Of a DNA stretch of 64,000 bases, positions 52,936-64,000 are shown piece by piece. Made by a program: the position numbers and the translations under genes. Positions within the stretch are counted from its first letter, which is position 1; every line of letters starts with the position of its first letter. The notes beneath the pieces were generated by a model, which saw nothing but the letters and a program-made list of their open reading frames with translations, had not been told where the DNA came from and ran no database searches. Location: positions 1-64,000 of the forward strand of contig NZ_CP071454.1 in NCBI RefSeq assembly GCF_017352135.1, given 5' to 3'. Origin of the DNA: Rhizobium lentis (GTDB taxonomy: Bacteria > Pseudomonadota > Alphaproteobacteria > Rhizobiales > Rhizobiaceae).

Positions 52936-53156
52936 CGCTTCGATCTCCTCGTTGGGGCGAATTCCCGCACCTCCTGTCCTAAGGCGGGTTCATCACGCAT
53001 TGGTCGGACATAGTTTCGCATCGGGCCTCGAAAAGTGGGAGTAACAAGTGTGACCGGAATTCGCGCGGCCAGCGCAACCCCGACCAACACAACAGTTGCC
53101 AAAACCTGCAGACTGACGGAAGCTTCACCCTGGCCATTGGCGACGGATTGCGCGAC

Positions 53157-53924
53157 ATGACGACAGCCTCATCAAGCGAGACGGCAAGACACGGCAGCGC
53201 CAGCATCTGCCGCGGCTGCTGGGATCAGATGCATATGCCGATTCCGATCGGCGGACCGCTCGCGCTTCCCTTCCGCGCCTTCGGCATCACCCGCAGCAAG
53301 ATGAACCCCGACATCTGCACGATCTGCGAGCGCTCCTTTCAATATGTGAAGAAGCAGCGTCAGATCACCGTGGACGCCACCATTCTGTTTGCCGATATCA
53401 GAGGCTTTACCGATCTTTCCGAGCGCATCGAGGCGGTGCGCTTGAGCGAAATCGTCAGCCTGTTCCAGGATCGCTGCGCCCAGGCCATCTGGGCGCATGA
53501 CGGCATCGTCAACAAGCAGATGGGCGACGGCCTGATGGCGATCTTCAATTTCCCGATCCTCCGCAAGGATCATGCCGCCGCGGCGATCATGGCCGCGGAG
53601 GAAATCCAGCGCAACTGCGCCGCGGCGCTAAGCAGCCTGGCGCTCGACGCCCTGCCCGGCCGCACCTTGGGCATCGGTGTCGGCATCCATTCCGGCGAGG
53701 TTCAGATCGGCGAATTCTCCAGCTTCCGCAGCGACTTCACCGCCATCGGCGGCGTCGTCAACCAGGCCGCACGGCTTGAATCCCAGGCGGCAGCCGGCGA
53801 GATTCTGATTTCGGCCGAAACGGCCGCCAAGGCTCCTGACCTCGCGGTGGGCGCAGAAACCCGTATGCTGGCGCTGAAGGGCATCGAGCAGCCGGTGCAG
53901 GCAAGCGTGCTTGTCAAATTGTGA
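53157..53924 (+). CDS. Class III adenylate/guanylate cyclase with Cys-rich N-terminus
   Basis: 255 residues. Cyclase domain about 70-255: TILFADIRGFTDLSERIE contains the metal-binding Asp, KQMGDGLMAIFNFP the second Asp, and SDFTAIGGVVNQAARLESQA the substrate block. N-terminal 60 residues hold CRGCW and CTICERS, CxxC pairs separated by about 35 residues, possibly a zinc ribbon or redox switch. Start at ATG 53157; the 3-codon-longer frame has no ribosome site. It is convergent with the DUF982 gene. Product is probably cAMP. Confidence 0.85.
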   Translation: MTTASSSETARHGSASICRGCWDQMHMPIPIGGPLALPFRAFGITRSKMNPDICTICERSFQYVKKQRQITVDATILFADIRGFTDLSERIEAVRLSEIVSLFQDRCAQAIWAHDGIVNKQMGDGLMAIFNFPILRKDHAAAAIMAAEEIQRNCAAALSSLALDALPGRTLGIGVGIHSGEVQIGEFSSFRSDFTAIGGVVNQAARLESQAAAGEILISAETAAKAPDLAVGAETRMLALKGIEQPVQASVLVKL

Positions 53925-55168: not shown

Positions 55169-58100
55169 ATGGCCAGATCTCCGAAAAAATCTTCGCCCTC
55201 GAATGGTTTCGAGGAAGCCCCGCAATCGTCCTTTGAAGGCGCCCCACTCTCCGGCTCCGTCGCCGATTGGGTGAAGCAGCTCGAGGCCGATGCCGAAGCG
55301 TCGGGGGTGGAGAGCCAGCGCGAGATCGCTTCCAAGGCTGGCAAGCACCGCAAGAAGGTGGAAAACGAGGCGCGCAAGCACAACGAAGCGGTCAGCGTCA
55401 ACAAGAAGGCGACGGTCAGCAAGACTGCACGCGGCGTCTCGATCGGCGGTTCCTCCGACCCGAAGACGCGCGCCGCCGCCGGCCTCAATCCGGTGGCCGG
55501 CCTCGACATTTCGCTCGAGGATGCCGGCAGCATCTCGCCCGGCGGCGTCACTGCCACGGTCGAGGCGCTTTCCAAGCTGATCGAGAGCGGCAACCCGCTG
55601 CACAAGAACGGCAAGATCTGGACGCCGCACCGCCCTGCCCGCCCGGATAAATCGGAAGGCGGCATCACCATTCGCATGGCCTCCGAATACAAGCCGGCCG
55701 GCGACCAGCCGACGGCCATTCGCGATCTCGTCGAGGGCCTGCAGAGCGGCGAGCGCAGCCAGGTGCTGCTCGGCGTCACCGGCTCCGGCAAGACCTTCAC
55801 CATGGCCAAGGTGATCGAGGAGACGCAGCGCCCGGCTGTCATCCTCGCGCCGAACAAGACGCTGGCCGCCCAGCTCTATTCCGAGTTCAAGAACTTCTTC
55901 CCCGACAATGCGGTGGAATATTTCGTTTCCTACTACGATTACTACCAGCCGGAAGCCTATGTGCCGCGCTCCGACACCTATATCGAGAAGGAAAGCTCCA
56001 TCAACGAGCAGATCGACCGCATGCGCCACTCGGCGACGCGCTCGCTGCTCGAACGCGACGATTGCATCATCGTCGCCTCAGTCTCCTGCATCTATGGTAT
56101 CGGCTCGGTCGAGACCTATACGGCGATGACCTTCCAGATGAATGTCGGCGACCGGCTGGACCAGCGCCAGCTGCTGGCCGATCTCGTCGCCCAGCAATAT
56201 AAGCGCCGCGATATGGATTTCACCCGCGGCTCCTTCCGCGTGCGCGGCGATACGATCGAGATCTTCCCCGCCCACCTGGAGGATGCCGCCTGGCGCATCT
56301 CGATGTTCGGCGACGAGATCGACGCCATCACCGAGTTCGACCCGCTGACCGGCCAGAAGACCGGCGATCTGAAATCGGTGAAGATCTACGCCAATTCGCA
56401 CTATGTCACCCCGCGCCCGACGCTGAACGGCGCCATCAAGGCGATCAAGGAAGAGCTCAGGCTGCGCCTCGCCGAACTGGAGAAGGCCGGCCGCCTGCTG
56501 GAGGCCCAGCGCCTGGAGCAGCGCACCCGCTACGATATCGAGATGCTGGAAGCCACCGGCTCCTGCCAGGGCATCGAGAACTATTCGCGCTACCTCACCG
56601 GCCGCGATCCCGGCGATCCGCCGCCGACGCTGTTCGAATATATTCCCGACAACGCCATCGTCTTCATCGACGAGAGCCATGTCACCGTGCCGCAGATCGG
56701 CGGCATGTATCGCGGCGACTTCCGCCGCAAGGCGACGCTGGCCGAATACGGCTTCCGCCTGCCCTCCTGCATGGACAACCGGCCGCTGCGCTTCGAGGAA
56801 TGGGACGCCATGCGTCCCGACACCATTGCCGTTTCGGCCACGCCGGGCAGCTGGGAGCTGGAGCAATCGGGCGGCGTCTTCGCCGAACAGGTGATCCGCC
56901 CGACCGGCCTGATCGACCCACCGGTCGAGGTCCGATCCGCCCGCACCCAGGTCGACGACGTGCTCGGCGAAATCCGCGAAACCGCCGCCAAGGGCTACCG
57001 CACGCTCTGCACCGTGTTGACCAAGCGCATGGCCGAAGACCTCACAGAATATCTGCATGAGCAAGGCGTGCGCGTGCGCTACATGCACTCGGATATCGAC
57101 ACGCTGGAGCGCATCGAGATCATCCGCGATCTCCGCCTCGGAGCTTTCGACGTGCTCGTCGGCATCAACCTGCTGCGCGAGGGCCTCGACATTCCGGAAT
57201 GCGGCTTCGTCGCCATTCTCGATGCCGACAAGGAAGGCTTCCTGCGCTCCGAAACCTCGCTGATCCAGACGATTGGCCGCGCAGCACGCAACGTCGACGG
57301 CAAGGTCATCCTCTATGCCGACCAGATCACCGGCTCCATGCAGCGCGCCATGGACGAGACCGCGCGCCGCCGCGAAAAGCAGATGGCCTATAACCTCGAA
57401 CACGGCATCACGCCGGAATCGGTGAAGGCCAAGATCTCCGACATCCTCGACAGTGTCTACGAACGCGACCACGTCCGCGCCGACATCTCGGGCGTCTCGG
57501 GCAAAGGCTTCGCCGACGGCGGCAACCTCGTCGGCAACAACCTCCAGGCCCATCTCAACGCCCTCGAAAAGAGCATGCGCGACGCCGCCGCCGACCTCGA
57601 CTTCGAAAAAGCCGCCCGCCTCCGCGACGAAATCAAACGCCTCAAGGCCGTGGAACTCGCCGCCATGGACGATCCGATGGCGCGCGAGGAAGCTCGCAAC
57701 CAGGAAGGTGGCAAGAGAACTGGAAAAGCCAACCGCGAGTCCCTTCTCCCCACGGGGGAGAAGGTGCCCGTCAGGGCGGATGAGGGGGCCACACCCTCCT
57801 ACTTCTCCAAACCCACCCTCGACGACATGGGCCCAGGCACCGACACCACCACCCCCCTGTTCCGCAAACCCGATCTCGACGAAATGGGCCGCCACGTCGC
57901 CACCCCCGCCGACAGCAAAAGCCTCTTCCGTCGCAACACGCTCGACGAAATGACCGTCAGCCGCACGGAAAAACCGGTGACCGGCCATGTGCCGGAGAAG
58001 CCGGAGTCCGCCAAGGACACGAAGCGCTTCTCACCCTTGCTTGAAGGCCAGCCGGAACGCGACGACGGCGTGAGGCCGGTGGTGCGCGGCCGCGTTGGCG

Positions 58101-58177
58101 CCGGGAGCTATGAGGAGCCGGGCGAGCAGAAGCGCAAGGGGCGGACGAAGGGGAAGACTGGGCGGCCGGGGCGGTGA
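55169..58177 (+). CDS. uvrB: UvrB, excinuclease ABC subunit B
   Basis: 1002 residues from ATG 55169. After a 165-residue N-terminal extension comes the helicase core: Walker A GVTGSGKT (about residue 202), the beta-hairpin [30 protein letters not shown], and [13 protein letters not shown]. The UVR domain that contacts UvrC is at about 800 ([16 protein letters not shown]). It verifies DNA damage in nucleotide excision repair. Normal UvrB has about 670 residues; this one has an N-terminal and a C-terminal extension of about 160 each. The C-terminal one contains a palindromic repeat at codons 858-874. No SOS box was seen upstream. Confidence 0.97.
57741..57790. repeat. RIME-like palindrome inside the uvrB frame
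   Basis: CCCTTCTCCCCACGGGGGAG then AAGGTGCCCGTCAGGGCGGA then TGAGGGGGCC. It reproduces one half of the intergenic element at 16601-16718. It is in frame with uvrB and is read as [16 protein letters not shown], in the disordered C-terminal extension beyond the UVR domain. Rickettsial palindromic elements insert in coding frames in a similar way. Confidence 0.75.
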
Positions 58178-58206
58178 CTCGCTACAAGGCGGTCGTCGAG
58201 TGGCCG

Positions 58207-59706
58207 TTATAGGCTATAATGTCTTCTCAGAGCTTTATCGAAAGATTTCGCGATTACGAATTTCGCGTGACGACGGTATCTTTGTGTCTGCAATGAAAAG
58301 ATTGGCTTATACCCAATAAAAGCCTTACTCGCTCGGTTCACATACTTAGAAAACGTCCAAGTTTCATATCCGATATCTTGATTGAACGTCACGTCTCGCA
58401 ACAGTTTTGTTTCAATTTTCCTTCGATTGTAGTTAGCAATCAGCCATCCTTTGCCTTTGGCGCGATATCGCTTAACGAATCGCCACGCATCGCCATAGGC
58501 TCGCATTTTGAGCTTTCTCCAGGCATTGGACAGCGTAGAGTTCTTGATCTTCACCGTTTGGCCATCGAATTCAAAACCAAGATATTCGAGGCCATTCCTG
58601 GAGGCCTTCCCGTATAGATGTGCAAACGAAAGGCCAGTTTGTGCGGAAGAGAATTCACAAACGGCGACTTTCTTATCCTGGATCCGTAATTGCTTTCCGT
58701 AATTCTTTATCGCAGATTGGAGACGTTCCTTTGCAGCCATAGGGTCCGGCGCGCCACCTGTGGGAAGGATGATAACAATGTCGTCAGAATAGCGTCTATA
58801 AAGTCCTCCAAGAGCTTTGCTCCAGGAGTTCATTTCCTCGTCAAACTCGATCAAGTAAAAGTTTGCAATTAGATCAGACAACGGCGTACCCTGCGGAATC
58901 CCGAAATCAAATCCATTCTTTTGAATTAGGCTGGCTTGGCCTGCCCCTTTGCCGGAAACAATACTCCTAAATTCTGTGGGTTCGCAGATCTGTTTAAAGC
59001 CGCTTGTTCGAAGGACATCTATCTTACGCTTTCGCTTTTCAGTCCGGTTTGCTCCATCGCCCTTTTTATACATCTGCAGACGATTGAATAAGAGATCGAT
59101 GTCCACGACTGAGTACTTGGTAACGGCACGGAAAACAGCCAAATGGTCAGGGGGCAAGTCTCTTCCGATGAGCATCTCCCAAACAGCTTTGATGCGAGAG
59201 TGCTCCAGACTTTCGAAGTAGGATTTTATGTCGACGACTGTGACGTAACAGCCGTCGCATTGCTTAATAAAGGAAAATATGTCGCGAGCTATTTCTATAT
59301 TACATTTATTTCCGCCACCGGCCTTCGGCAATCTGCGATAGGCCACTGGAACATCTTCGATGCCTCGTTTTCTCAGCTGTCTCTCATATAAAGGTGAAAG
59401 CTTTGCGCGATAGCGGGCGAATATCGCGGCATCTCTCCTCGAAGCAAATCTTATTGGCCTACTCTTCCTGGTTCGGGCGCCGTCCCTTCTGAATTTCGCC
59501 CACTCCTCGTGGAACAACAACAAAGGCAGGAAGGGGTTCTTCGCGACTTCTGTTGGACTGTTTGCTATGCGCGCAAGCTGATGGGGTGAAACATTCCGGT
59601 CGAAATGTATATATGTTTTTATGTCCTTATCACGTGGAACCCAGTGTTCTTCTGATTGCCCGGCGTCATATTCGGTGTGAGAGGAGGCAAAAACACCATC
59701 AGGCAT
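58207..59706 (-). CDS. Antiphage-type reverse transcriptase (DRT2-like candidate)
   Basis: 499 residues. RT motifs: catalytic Asp159 in VTVVDIKSYFESLEHS, IPQGTPLSDLIANFYLIEFD, YRRYSDDIVII with Asp308-Asp309, and GLEYLGFEFDGQTVKIKNS. It lacks the maturase/HNH of group II introns and the palm of retrons in typical order, and no intron boundary or retron msr is visible. The KSRPIRFASRRDAAIFARY block and SDLIANFYL resemble unknown-group RTs such as DRT2, which produce a repeat-encoding cDNA from an upstream RNA. Its base composition is AT-richer than neighbours, suggesting recent transfer. Convergent with uvrB, 30 bp apart. Confidence 0.8.
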   Translation of the reverse strand: MPDGVFASSHTEYDAGQSEEHWVPRDKDIKTYIHFDRNVSPHQLARIANSPTEVAKNPFLPLLLFHEEWAKFRRDGARTRKSRPIRFASRRDAAIFARYRAKLSPLYERQLRKRGIEDVPVAYRRLPKAGGGNKCNIEIARDIFSFIKQCDGCYVTVVDIKSYFESLEHSRIKAVWEMLIGRDLPPDHLAVFRAVTKYSVVDIDLLFNRLQMYKKGDGANRTEKRKRKIDVLRTSGFKQICEPTEFRSIVSGKGAGQASLIQKNGFDFGIPQGTPLSDLIANFYLIEFDEEMNSWSKALGGLYRRYSDDIVIILPTGGAPDPMAAKERLQSAIKNYGKQLRIQDKKVAVCEFSSAQTGLSFAHLYGKASRNGLEYLGFEFDGQTVKIKNSTLSNAWRKLKMRAYGDAWRFVKRYRAKGKGWLIANYNRRKIETKLLRDVTFNQDIGYETWTFSKYVNRASKAFIGYKPIFSLQTQRYRRHAKFVIAKSFDKALRRHYSL

Positions 59707-60000
59707 GGTTTAGTTTTTGCCTCCGCCAGTATATCATGGCACAAATGCCACTAACGTCCTTAAATTAACGAAACATGCTATTCTGTCACTGCGGAGATAT
59801 TGTCGACTATTGTCGGCATCATCACCAGGAAGATTGGAAAGCGAACAACCATCGGAGTAATGTTGATGATCGCAGCGCTATTAACCGCCTTTCCGATTGA
59901 CAGTATAAACACTTGACTCACGCGTTACCGTGATCCGGGACACCGATCATGGTTAGACCATTGCCGGGCTTACCGTCTGGGAACCCCCATGCAGAAAATA
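59707..60000 (-). ncRNA. Candidate structured noncoding RNA/leader upstream of the reverse transcriptase
   Basis: About 290 nt with no convincing protein. Read on the minus strand it contains a stem CCG-x3-ATGGT-CTA-ACCAT-x3-CGG (59943-59967), TCACG-GTAACG-CGTGA (59918-59933), and TGGCA-TTTG-TGCCA just before the gene (59737-59750). A TTGAAA-N17-GATATT promoter-like pair lies at about 60003-60031. Single-RT defence systems of the DRT2 type use an RNA of about this length and position. No homology search has been made, so the boundaries are guesses. Confidence 0.35.
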
Positions 60001-60245
60001 TCAGACTTGACTTGCTGACTTTCAAGCCTGCGTTGAAGAAATCTACAGTTTTTTAGCATTTTTTACGAAACTTACTCTTCGCCAACTGCAACTGCGCTGA
60101 TTCCAAGTAATTAGAGATTGTTCATAATGGTGCATTTCAGGACTGAAGCAGCTTTTCGGGTCAGTCTCTACCGGTAGATCAAGCAGACATCCCCGGAGCC
60201 AGGAAAACTGAAGACCTTCCTCTCGCCACCGCATGCCTCCTTCCC
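60001..60245. other. Upstream intergenic DNA before the RT leader
   Basis: 245 bases between the presumed RNA promoter and the next gene. A/T-rich, with a run of TTTTTT at 60048-60053. No gene seen. It could contain the end of the conserved gene's terminator and the upstream part of the RT promoter. Confidence 0.35.
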
Positions 60246-60944
60246 TCACCTATACACAATCCTCGCCTCCCTCTTCACCAGCGCAAAATAAATCCGCTCC
60301 ACCCGACAGGCCGCACTCCTCGCGCTCGCCTCGTACCCCGCCGCCGGCCATCCGAGCCGCGGGCTGCCATCGGCCGATATCAGCCAGTACCAGCGCTCGT
60401 TGAAGCCGGTGAATTCGATCTTGAAGATCCGCCCCATGCAGGTTTCGCCGTCGAAGCCGATGAAATCGTCGCCCGGCTTTTCCTTCCAGGCGTGGCGCCA
60501 TTTGCCCCTGGGCCTCTCGCCGCTGGCGATCATCTCCCAGCTCTTCCAGCCGTTATAATCCGATCGCGCCGTCAGCGAGCCGTCATAGGGTTTCCGGTCG
60601 AACTCCATGCAGCCTTCGAGAAAGACGGCGACGGACTCGCAGACATCACGCCACGCCTTATCGTCGCGCCATGTCAGCCTGTAGGCGAGTTCATCGGATA
60701 CGTTGCGCAGCGCCTCGGCGATGGCGAAGGCGACGCCTGCCTTGCTCGCCGGCCGACCCTTTGCCTTGATGTCGAGATGGGTACAGAGGAAATCCGCTGC
60801 ATCACGCGCGATGGCATGGATAACATGCGGTTGCCGGCGCTTGCCGATCGCATAGCCGCCGAAATCCCGGATCCGGCGCTGCGATTGCTTGCGAAAGCTG
60901 GTGTTGAGGAACGACCGTAACAGCGTCCCGGCATCGTCTTGCAT
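60246..60944 (-). CDS. Conserved rhizobial hypothetical protein
   Basis: 232 residues, no recognised domain. N-terminal half is basic and helical (SFLNTSFRKQSQRRIRDFGG, HAIARDAADFLCTHLDIKA). The C-terminal half is rich in Trp/Asp (WHAWKEKPGDDFIGFDGETC, NERWYWLISADGSPRLGWP). The start at 60944 has the strong site GAGGAGAGGACACGC. The gene seems native (GC-rich) and may mark the boundary of the inserted RT segment. Confidence 0.65.
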   Translation of the reverse strand: MQDDAGTLLRSFLNTSFRKQSQRRIRDFGGYAIGKRRQPHVIHAIARDAADFLCTHLDIKAKGRPASKAGVAFAIAEALRNVSDELAYRLTWRDDKAWRDVCESVAVFLEGCMEFDRKPYDGSLTARSDYNGWKSWEMIASGERPRGKWRHAWKEKPGDDFIGFDGETCMGRIFKIEFTGFNERWYWLISADGSPRLGWPAAGYEASARSAACRVERIYFALVKREARIVYR

Positions 60945-61063
60945 GCGTGTCCTCTCCTCGTGAGGATGTTTGCCGCATGGTTTCGTGAATGGCTCCCGCC
61001 CGAGCCGGCGATATCAGCGCAATTCCGGACGCAGGACCGCCACGCGCTTTTGCCGGAACTGTT

Positions 61064-61783
61064 CTAGATCAGCGTCGGCTCCGGATCGTCCTCGACCTCG
61101 TCGAGAATCTCCGGCCCGTCATTCCGCGGCGAGCCGACGCCCCGGCCGATCTTCCACATCGTCATCAGCTCGGCCGGAAAGGGCTTCATCAGATCGCCGG
61201 GGTCTGGCTCCGGCGACAGCCACCTTTCATAATCCTCGCGATGCAGGATGACGGGCATGCGGTCGTGAATCGCAGCCATCATCTCGTTCGGCTCGCAGGT
61301 GAGGATGGCGAAGTTGCGGATCGACACGCCGTTCTCATCCTTCCAGGTCTCCCAGATGCCGGCGAGCGCGAAGGGAGCGCCGTCCTTCATCGCGATCGCA
61401 TAAGGCTGCTTGTTCTTGCCGGTCCCGAGAATATCCTTCCATTCGAAGAAGCCGTTGATCGGCACCAGGCAGCGGCGCGAACGATAGGCCGCCCGGAACA
61501 TGCCGTTGGAAGCGACGGTCTCACAGCGGACATTGACCAGCGGCCGCCCGCCGGGCTTCGCCCAGGAGGTTATCAGCCCCCAGCGGGCGGCGGCGAAGAT
61601 GGGACCTGATGTATCCGGCTCGCGCACGATGTCGCTGACGATGATCGGATAATCCTGCGACGGCGCGCCGTTCCACCGGGGAAAGCGATTTCCAAGTCCA
61701 TCGATATCCCCGCCCTTCACGGCCAAGGGGAAATTGCCGATCAGTTCCTCAAGAGAAGTCCTGACGAATATACGTCCGCACAT
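61064..61783 (-). CDS. SRAP protein (YedK/HMCES), abasic-site shield
   Basis: 239 residues. The catalytic Cys2 (MCGRIFVR) forms a thiazolidine crosslink with abasic DNA; Asn84 (LVNVRCE), Glu114 (GFFEWK) and His181 (MPVILH) complete the site. The protein covers abasic sites in single-stranded DNA. It is preceded by a LexA box (61813-61827), so SOS control is probable. Start at 61783 is behind GGAGAGCACTGC, and Cys2 must follow the start methionine. Confidence 0.95.
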   Translation of the reverse strand: MCGRIFVRTSLEELIGNFPLAVKGGDIDGLGNRFPRWNGAPSQDYPIIVSDIVREPDTSGPIFAAARWGLITSWAKPGGRPLVNVRCETVASNGMFRAAYRSRRCLVPINGFFEWKDILGTGKNKQPYAIAMKDGAPFALAGIWETWKDENGVSIRNFAILTCEPNEMMAAIHDRMPVILHREDYERWLSPEPDPGDLMKPFPAELMTMWKIGRGVGSPRNDGPEILDEVEDDPEPTLI

Positions 61784-62225
61784 GCAGTGCTCTCCACCGG
61801 TCGAAATTGTATGTTCCCATTATGTTCTTGGTCGCAATGGTGTCAACCAAACCTCAGTTGTGTGCGAGAATGCCCGCCGACCATTCAAGCTCGTATGAGC
61901 CCGGCGCGCCGGAACAAGCCGAAGCGCACCACCAACCTGCGATAGTTACGCGGATGGCCGCCCGACGCGGCACTATGGAAAGAGTTGGCTAAAAACACAA
62001 TCTTTGCGAGAGTATCCAGCTCAAAAATGAAAGGCAATACTATTTAGAAAACCAAAATATTGCTTTGAGTTCTCAAAATAAAATTCTCTCCGCCAGTATG
62101 TCATCCTTAGTTTTTCATTAAAAATGCAATGAAAAGACACAATTTTGCATTGAAAACTTAATCGGCGCTTGGCATAGATCCCCGAGGATTGTCATCCGCT
62201 GAGCAATAAAACAGCTCTTTCGGGG
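61784..62225. other. Intergenic region between SRAP and RTX genes
   Basis: 442 bases. Near 61813 it holds the LexA box. From about 61990 to 62160 it is very A/T-rich with runs of A and T, as expected for the promoter of the RTX gene or a silenced acquired gene. No further gene was found. Confidence 0.5.
61813..61827. promoter_or_regulatory. LexA (SOS) box of the SRAP gene
   Basis: GTTC-CCATTAT-GTTC, an exact match to the alphaproteobacterial LexA site GTTC-N7-GTTC. It lies 30 bp upstream of the SRAP start codon. No other GTTC-N7-GTTC was noticed before uvrB. Confidence 0.85.
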
Positions 62226-64000
62226 ATGTCTCATATTGCCGAGTACAACGCATCTTTTGGGAATATTCTGGACACGAACGGCGCCACAATTACCAAGACC
62301 GGCGCTGAGTTCGAAGCGTATGATATTATCCGCTACTCGAATGCCACGCCTCTCGCCGCTGTCGCCCTCACCGTCTCCGATTCCAGCGTGGCAGACCTCG
62401 CCGACGAGCTGGGTTCGGTTTCCGCAAGCGTACGGGGCTCGAGCGGCGACAACACGATCACGACCGGTGCGGGCAACGACTTGCTCAATGGTGAAGCGGG
62501 CAATGACACGCTGAATGGCGGCGACGGCAATGACGAGATTTACGGGGGCGTCGGCAACGACGTCATCAAAGGTGGCGCGGGTAACGACACGATTAGCGAT
62601 GGAGATTATTTTTCCAATGTCGCTGAGATCTTCAATATCGATGCGGGCGATGGCAACGACAAAGTGATTTTGTCCAACGGCCCTTTCGCCAAAGTGTCGG
62701 GAACGATCGACGGCGGCGCCGGCACGGACACGCTGCAAGCCAGCGATCTGAGAGGCCTGACGATTAAGAATGTCGAGATCCTGCAATCGGTGACTTCCGG
62801 TGTGACGGCATCGACCGCACAGCTCGAATCCTTTAACAAGATCATCGGTTCAGCCTCCGACTCTTCCGTCCAGCTGCTCTTGACGGATAGCGCCCATGTC
62901 GATCTCTCCGACGAGTTGACAGGCACGCTAAATTACATCTTCGGCAATGCTTCCGGTATCGACGTCACGACCGGAAGCGCTCGCGACCTTCTTACCGGAA
63001 CTGCTGGCAACGACATCTTAGACGCCGGCGACGGCAACGACTATATCAATGGCAATGGCGGAAATGACCGGCTAATCGGCGGCAAGGGCGATGATACAAT
63101 CGTCGATGGTCAAGTTTCCAGCTCTGCGCCGGAAGTGTTCGACATCAATGCGGGCGATGGAAACGATGTAGTAATTCTGCAGACACCTTCTCAGGGACTT
63201 TCCGGGACAATTGATGGCGGTGCCGGAATAGATACACTGCGAGTCGCCAGACTAGCAGACCTGACGATCAAGAATTTCGAAAATCTTGAAACGAATGAAT
63301 ACGGTTTTACCGGTTCAACTGCACAGTTAGAGAGCTTTGACAAGATCTCGGGAATGAAGGATGCCTTTGGCTCCTCTTTGGCCGTCTTGAGAGTGACGGA
63401 CAATTCCCACATCGATCTTTCCGACGAGCTTGGGAGCAGTCGGGCTAGCATCATTGGCACGGTCTCCGCCCTCGACGTCAAGACCGGCAATGGTGACGAC
63501 ATATTTACGGGAACCGCCGGTAACGACATTTTCGACGGCAGCGGCGGCAACGACACGATCAACGGCAATGCCGGGAATGACAAATTAACCGGCGGCGAAG
63601 GCAACGACCAGATCTTCGGCGGCGTCGGAAATGACATCATCAAAGGTGGCGCGGGCGACGACAAGATCACCGATGGCGACAATATGTCCACCGCCCCTGA
63701 AGCCTTCGATATCGATGCCGGCGACGGCAATGACGCCATCAACCTGCAGACACATTCTTCCGCGATTTCCGGCGTGATCGACGGCGGCGCCGGCACCGAC
63801 ACGCTGCAAGTCATCAAGCCCACATTGGGCCCGGGTATGGAATTCATCGGGCTTGCCGGTCTGACAATCAAGAATGTCGAAATTCTTGAAACGGCGGGAG
63901 CCGAGGTCCTCGCTTCGGCTGCGCAGTTCGAAAGCTTCGACAAGATCGTCAAATACGACAAGCCGGGCTACGAGAACGACGTCCTTGCACTGACGTTGAT
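62226..64000 (+). CDS. RTX calcium-binding repeat protein (3' end outside window)
   Basis: At least 591 codons, open to the end of the window. Start ATG 62226 (MSHIAEYNASFGNILDTNG). Repeats of the nonapeptide GGxGNDxLx appear in three clusters at about 62467, 63003 and 63520, each followed by EIFNIDAGDGNDKVIL/TIDGGAGTDTLQASD and LTIKNVEIL/AQLESFDKI/HVDLSDEL segments. So the protein is made of about 175-residue modules. Such proteins bind Ca2+ in beta-rolls and leave by type I secretion; no transporter is in view. No classical signal peptide. Function may be adhesion, as for rhizobial secreted RTX proteins. Confidence 0.88.
   Translation, partial: MSHIAEYNASFGNILDTNGATITKTGAEFEAYDIIRYSNATPLAAVALTVSDSSVADLADELGSVSASVRGSSGDNTITTGAGNDLLNGEAGNDTLNGGDGNDEIYGGVGNDVIKGGAGNDTISDGDYFSNVAEIFNIDAGDGNDKVILSNGPFAKVSGTIDGGAGTDTLQASDLRGLTIKNVEILQSVTSGVTASTAQLESFNKIIGSASDSSVQLLLTDSAHVDLSDELTGTLNYIFGNASGIDVTTGSARDLLTGTAGNDILDAGDGNDYINGNGGNDRLIGGKGDDTIVDGQVSSSAPEVFDINAGDGNDVVILQTPSQGLSGTIDGGAGIDTLRVARLADLTIKNFENLETNEYGFTGSTAQLESFDKISGMKDAFGSSLAVLRVTDNSHIDLSDELGSSRASIIGTVSALDVKTGNGDDIFTGTAGNDIFDGSGGNDTINGNAGNDKLTGGEGNDQIFGGVGNDIIKGGAGDDKITDGDNMSTAPEAFDIDAGDGNDAINLQTHSSAISGVIDGGAGTDTLQVIKPTLGPGMEFIGLAGLTIKNVEILETAGAEVLASAAQFESFDKIVKYDKPGYENDVLALTL

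Follow-up and report, generated by a model that had tools for sequence, protein, structure and literature searches.

A probable DRT2 antiphage system of an alphaproteobacterial lineage in Rhizobium lentis, with a predicted gene absent as such from the genome

The locus and its genomic site

The window analysed here comprises the first 64,000 nucleotides of Rhizobium lentis contig NZ_CP071454.1. On its minus strand, a single gene (58207..59706) with an ATG start encodes a reverse transcriptase (RT) of 499 amino acids, and a structured noncoding RNA lies directly upstream. The original prediction was of a solitary RT with a YSDD active site and catalytic residues D159 and D308-D309. The open reading frame agrees with it: residues 306-309 are YSDD, and D159, D308 and D309 are invariant in alignments of 6 and of 17 sequences. 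The region is also AT-richer than its flanks, as had been noticed, with a GC content of 0.46-0.49 over 58250-60249 against 0.61-0.65 over 57000-58249 and 60250-61499.

To the left lies a gene that appears to be uvrB, as it was called in the original prediction and as we read its protein. The right side has two genes, one encoding an SRAP protein and one that Pfam does not recognise; neither matches PADLOC. We compared the interval from uvrB to the next shared gene with eight relatives. It measures about 2.1 kb in the window as against about 102 nt in genome G007 and about 67 nt in G005. In genomes G009 and G012 the place is taken by different sequence, about 1.1 and 1.3 kb long, with an ORF that looks acetyltransferase-like by eye. 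In G023 uvrB is joined to the middle of the next gene, and in three of the eight no shared downstream gene occurs within the piece compared. Different cargo or a nearly empty interval in relatives points to the system being single-module cargo at a small variable site beside uvrB. Among the repeat pairs listed, none was found at the ends of the system. In relatives (loci L121 and L122), the cargo in the interval from uvrB to 60246 includes an acetyltransferase-like ORF of 128 aa.

The reverse transcriptase

Several lines of comparison place the RT in one family, in agreement with the DRT2-like character first proposed for it. The PADLOC family Drt2 (PDLC03757) matches it with 404 bits (E 2.6e-121), while the second-best family among the best 25 of 76 rows is Drt3a with 68.5 bits, and Drt9 scores 36.6 bits. 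Pfam RVT_1 gives 29.1 bits, just short of its cut-off of 29.6. The NCBIfam Drt2 equivalog NF041746 gives 314.8 bits and its cut-off of 390 is not reached; that cut-off is a naming rule and not a defining feature of a DRT2 system. The closest solved protein by sequence is KpDRT2 (PDB 9c0i, E 1.1e-44). An AlphaFold2 model built from 17 sequences (pLDDT 86.5, pTM 0.84) again finds 9c0i first in Foldseek (E 5.8e-32), the next protein being DRT9 (PDB 9vma, E 3.0e-11), with which the RT fold is common. The window RT thus shares family and fold with KpDRT2 (9c0i and related entries), but it is only 26% identical to it in the structural alignment and about 75 aa longer. Taken together, sequence and modelled fold identify it as an RT of the DRT2/UG2 type.

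Could it instead belong to a retron or a group II intron? The motifs common to all RTs are what such a reading has in its favour. Among the best 25 of 76 PADLOC rows, the retron families RT_II-A and RT_Ec107-like reach 49.5 and 36.9 bits, far below the score of Drt2. The group II maturase model reaches 53.0 bits where 300 are required, and a retron or intron RT is ruled out by sequence and fold alike. An Rfam scan of 56000-62500 at E up to 1 matched no family, which bears out the initial impression that intron and retron parts are missing. We regard this reading as so improbable as to be negligible, and the DRT2 assignment is kept in what follows. A tRNA gene search over the same interval found none.

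In a tree of 93 rows, the window RT falls within a nine-row clade with support of 100/100, and thus with DRT2 and away from retrons and group II introns. Other members come from Brucella tritici, Agrobacterium leguminum, Rhizobium oryziradicis, Aquamicrobium and Aureimonas; one row (L132) is the window again, and the RTs of L011 and L023 are identical. The clade is nested in a mostly alphaproteobacterial clade of 71 rows (100/99), separate from the Kp-type RTs. Left out of this tree were four rows no longer than 300 aa and, by manual choice, loci L001, L002, L012-L015, L061, L090 and L100. Loci L003, L005, L006, L007, L008, L016 and L019 form a second DRT2 clade of the same class, deeply separate (100/100, branch 1.58). 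One of its members comes from the window's own genus (G040), and the units of L003 and L005, in the sense used below, are open and 129 nt long.

The upstream RNA and its promoter

The structured RNA covers about 310 nt (59683..59990, minus strand, approximate ends) and overlaps the start of the RT gene. It is conserved and covarying in six related loci, so that RNA and RT are kept together there, and the fold of the leader beats 100 of 100 shuffles (z -2.78). When 600 nt upstream of the RT were aligned in eight sequences, blocks strongly conserved in the close relatives were seen to flank a variable middle. The structure contains six helices with 38 pairs, and 96.0% of cells are paired in six sequences. 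Changes on both sides occur in 13 pairs. Shuffled sequences give 4.4 (sd 1.6) such pairs, and sliding the partner gives 0-3; these controls lean in favour of the structure in that it was partly derived from the same sequences and the shuffles ignore relatedness. A measure of further pair types is weaker (22 against 19.4, reached by 25 of 500 shuffles).

At its 3' end the RNA forms a terminal hairpin of 12 bp (59683..59724, minus strand). Its arms are 59724-59713 and 59694-59683, with the RT start codon (ATG, 59706-59704) in the loop between them. Both sides have changed at six of the 12 pairs, though the 3' arm encodes RT residues 5-8. The 5' arm includes GGAGG, a candidate Shine-Dalgarno sequence 13 nt ahead of the ATG, which is a long spacing. 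The leader had been described as ending before the gene; this part did not hold, as the hairpin enters RT codons 5-8, and what stands is a hairpin-bearing, structured RNA. A further stem, possibly closing the template region discussed below (59782..59904, minus strand), would pair ACTGTC (59904-59899) with GACAGA (59787-59782) and overlaps both halves of the promoter described there. In this helix, the third of the six, 91.7% of cells are paired and no pair shows changes on both sides.

A model of the 3' domain was searched at E up to 0.1 against 63 sources, namely the window and 62 loci, leaving out the training loci L020-L022, L024 and L035. It gave 21 matches. Nineteen, including three partial ones, fall at the RT starts of other loci; one is the window's own match, and one lies on the complementary strand of its hairpin. 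Among 80 relative genomes the model matched at the window locus only, and away from an RT there was no match in either the 63 sources or the 80 genomes.

The RNA is probably transcribed from a promoter at 59997..60025 (minus strand), with TTGAAA (60025-60020) and GATATT (60002-59997) separated by 17 nt. The promoter-like pair noticed at the outset is thus present but weak alone: it scores 9/12, and shuffles of the region yield 0.7 (sd 0.9) such sites, so that by itself it does not rise above chance. A CTTGAA box was seen by eye at the matching place in the alignment of the window and its five closest relatives.

The template unit in the window

KpDRT2 makes rolling-circle cDNA from an upstream noncoding RNA. 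Its units of about 120 nt form, where they join, a promoter and an endless open reading frame, neo, and phage infection leads to a toxic Neo protein. In the window we predict a template unit at 59770..59910 (plus strand, the sense of the cDNA). It is 141 nt or 47 codons long and stop-free when repeated:

ETCYSVTAEILSTIVGIITRKIGKRTTIGVMLMIAALLTAFPIDSIN

Near its start lies TATTCT (59779..59784, plus strand), immediately preceded by TGC, which would serve as the -10 half of a promoter. Near its end lies TTGACA (59897..59902, plus strand), the -35 half. With this arrangement the two stand 17 nt apart only when copies join head to tail; a dimer of units accordingly contains TTGACA-17-TATTCT (10/12) spanning the junction. 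The length of the unit was set by this spacer, 17 nt being the usual sigma-70 distance. A promoter scan of the plus strand over 59600-60250 and of the window leader found none outside joined copies. Within the unit, GGAG (59854-59857) is followed after 8 nt by an in-frame ATG (59866-59868), together a putative start signal (59854..59868, plus strand), and joined units read as a stop-free repeat of 47 aa. As far as letters alone can tell, promoter and endless frame arise only in a head-to-tail concatemer. The unit is longer than that of KpDRT2, and the repeat peptide looks unrelated.

Template units across DRT2 loci

With a spacer of 17 nt, units could be delimited in the close relatives. The RTs of L035 (Brucella tritici), L024 (Agrobacterium leguminum), L020 (Rhizobium oryziradicis) and L021 (Aquamicrobium sp.) are 55-59% identical to that of the window and share RNA blocks with it. 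Their units measure 141, 132, 132 and 144 nt, that of L011 138 nt and that of L022 152 nt. The L022 unit is neither a multiple of three nor open; the others, like the window unit, are both, and all are open in one common frame. The peptide of the window unit differs from those of the first four.

The search was extended to 93 upstream regions, after dropping L002, L012, L014 and L015 (which are the places of L004 and L001), L061 and L067 (less than 300 nt). Both strict anchors occur in 71 of the 93, leaving 22 without a strict pair. The units are multiples of three in 64 of these 71 (P ~2e-23 against one third, a value that treats the loci as independent although they are not). Some of the regions are near-identical pairs, and in a non-redundant set 52 have anchors, 45 are multiples of three (P ~3e-15) and 44 are open. 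With the ends placed initially (9+8 nt), 55 of the 64 units are open in the coding frame, compared with one and none in the other frames and with 16.7 (sd 3.3, maximum 27) in 300 shuffles. When the ends are set by the flanking direct repeat, the number is 62. By comparison, the remaining frames of the same strand are open in one unit and in none, those of the complementary strand in 19, 16 and 10, and 500 shuffles that retain the promoter ends average 19.0 (sd 3.7) with a maximum of 31. The figure of 55 is independent; the gain to 62 is not, because the ends were moved once the earlier figure had been obtained. The two closed units, L010 and L060, have weak anchors, and their RTs are identical in the tree. 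Open units span 99 to 150 nt. In blocks of 526 bases taken elsewhere in the loci, there were 21 anchor pairs, of which 10 gave multiples of three and 4 were open, a small sample.

The rule also works on named E. coli and Photobacterium systems. Among loci that NCBI names drt2, two from E. coli (117 nt each) and one from Photobacterium (111 nt) have open units at spacer 17, one of the E. coli loci with one -35 mismatch; one from Nitratidesulfovibrio fits at spacer 16 only, with 144 nt. All 8 Kp-type units are open when their ends follow the terminal repeat (6+11 nt, ACA). A Neo that ends at a stop, which had seemed to occur in the Pseudomonas loci L086, L093, L094 and L097, was discarded as an artefact of the 9+8 nt ends.

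With relaxed anchors, eight of 21 loci lacking the strict pair fit (multiple of three, open), the doubtful L019 among them; L095, as kin of L091, was left aside here. L011 and L023, which have the same RT, were missed by the relaxed picker and have an open unit of 138 nt with anchors derived from the alignment. Of the seven units of the 71 that are not multiples of three, those of L038, L055, L057 and L070 become open once the spacer is 16, and L022, L066 and L084 stay closed at all spacers from 15 to 19. The units of L022, L066, L070 and L084 may truly be out of frame, because GT stands, by eye, at the expected places with spacer 17. In L022 (Aureimonas sp. AU12), translation from the start signal crosses one junction and ends after 48 aa, and its 152-nt unit could represent either decay or a finite Neo.

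A start signal was defined as a Shine-Dalgarno-like word 4-11 nt ahead of ATG, GTG or TTG. Of the 55 units that were open under the first ends, 48 have it in the coding frame, compared with 7 and 3 for the two alternative frames; for ATG alone the numbers are 41, 1 and 0. The signal had played no part in the choice of units. In L035, TTG serves as the start codon after the Shine-Dalgarno sequence. The coding frame has a mean hydropathy of 0.64. The two alternative frames of that strand give -0.20 and -0.87, and those of the complementary strand -0.47, -0.61 and 0.36, so a hydrophobic unit protein is suggested, though no more than that. There is no third-position excess: in seven pairs, substitutions number 63, 67 and 75 at codon positions 1, 2 and 3, and the idea of selection on the residues was dropped. 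The unit is thus kept open, with no visible selection on the residues that it would encode.

A unit without third-position excess would also be expected if the locus were another unknown-group system, DRT9-like or unclassified, whose cDNA acts untranslated and whose open frame is incidental. DRT9 consists of an RT and a noncoding RNA, and its product is a homopolymer cDNA; its place as second structural match speaks for such a reading. The Drt2 and Drt9 scores (404 against 36.6 bits) and the E values of the fold comparison (5.8e-32 against 3.0e-11) speak against it, as do a length class, open frame and start signal that recur across many loci. The window template, unlike that of DRT9, is a unit of coding length. 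We therefore consider a system of the DRT9 kind improbable and continue with DRT2.

The distribution of the system is sporadic. A match at E up to 1e-20 was found in three of 120 relative genomes, and 10 of 397 genomes of the order reach 1e-40 or better with the Drt2 model, the window's own being included in both counts. IMG/VR contains one viral contig with a relative (L099). A scan of viral_contigs and a phage search for Pseudomonas-type loci returned one near-identical RT and otherwise distant ones. Rarity of this kind would suit a decayed or inactive remnant of DRT2. However, the RT is intact with its catalytic residues, paired changes preserve the helices of the RNA, and the unit is open and within the length class. 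A remnant is hence very unlikely, and an intact DRT2 system is what we assume below.

The terminal repeat

In the RNA, the template has the dinucleotide GT as its 5' end (59909..59910, minus strand), and a second GT lies just beyond its 3' end (59768..59769, minus strand). The same arrangement, one dinucleotide at the 5' end of the unit and just past its 3' end, is found in 53 of 56 alphaproteobacterial-type loci. In 46 of the 53 it is GT at both ends, and in 7 (L009, L082, L072, L075, L076, L078 and L079, one clade in the tree) it is CT at both. The change to CT may have been a single event, to judge from that clade; the ends changed together all the same. In the 8 Kp-type loci the 5' end carries ACA, and the 3' end carries ACA in 4 and GCA in 4. 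In KpDRT2, ACA is the template-jump motif.

Interpretation

The locus combines a Drt2-family RT, a single RT gene, a structured RNA directly upstream, an unpunctuated unit that is a multiple of three, a promoter formed only at junctions, and an end repeat whose letters are GT and not ACA. We are confident in assigning it to the DRT2 antiphage systems, as a member from an alphaproteobacterial lineage. It departs from the Kp type in details, namely its RT clade, the GT repeat and the hairpin at the start codon. Production of cDNA, toxicity and phage defence at this locus are ascribed to it by analogy with KpDRT2.

The most likely course of events is the following. The promoter at about 60025-59997 would drive a transcript that contains the structured RNA and then the RT. 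The RT would copy the RNA from 59910 to 59770 and then return from the 5' to the 3' boundary by means of the GT repeat; repeated copying, to go by this anatomy and by KpDRT2, would give a head-to-tail concatemer. Each junction of such a concatemer brings TTGACA and TATTCT to a distance of 17 nt and so creates a promoter that the chromosome lacks. In KpDRT2 the cDNA becomes double-stranded on infection. After such a second-strand step, an mRNA could be made whose every unit contains the Shine-Dalgarno sequence and the ATG visible in the unit, and no stop. The resulting hydrophobic protein, repeating every 47 aa, would arrest the infected cell and halt the phage. It may be that alphaproteobacterial DRT2s in general are a mechanistic variant. 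In this view a GT repeat, or CT in one subclade, guides the jump in place of ACA, and one and the same transcript serves either as template or as messenger, the two uses being coupled via the last hairpin with its start codon and possible Shine-Dalgarno sequence; we see this as about evenly balanced between right and wrong.

If the above is correct, what looked like a solitary RT belongs to a system whose predicted gene is absent as such from the genome, and the prediction reaches the ends of the unit, its promoter, its start codon and the 47-aa repeat. The comparative rule behind it (anchors, length modulo 3, frame, start signal and terminal repeat) predicts a neo unit in 62 of 93 DRT2 upstream regions. 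The terminal dinucleotide that changes at both ends together offers a direct test of the passage of the RT between the ends of its template.

Other features of the window

Three further observations were made in passing. The 3' part of the uvrB ORF contains, at 57741-57794, a short dispersed repeat with many copies, 88-96% identical, in the genome and its relatives; we take it to be a RIME-type rhizobial mosaic element that is read through in frame. Positions 62226-64000 (plus strand) contain the first part of a long ORF that is still open where the window ends; it has RTX calcium-binding repeats, which Pfam HemolysinCabind matches in six stretches. The plus strand also encodes, at 53148-53924, a class III nucleotide cyclase (PADLOC PycC, E 9e-25).
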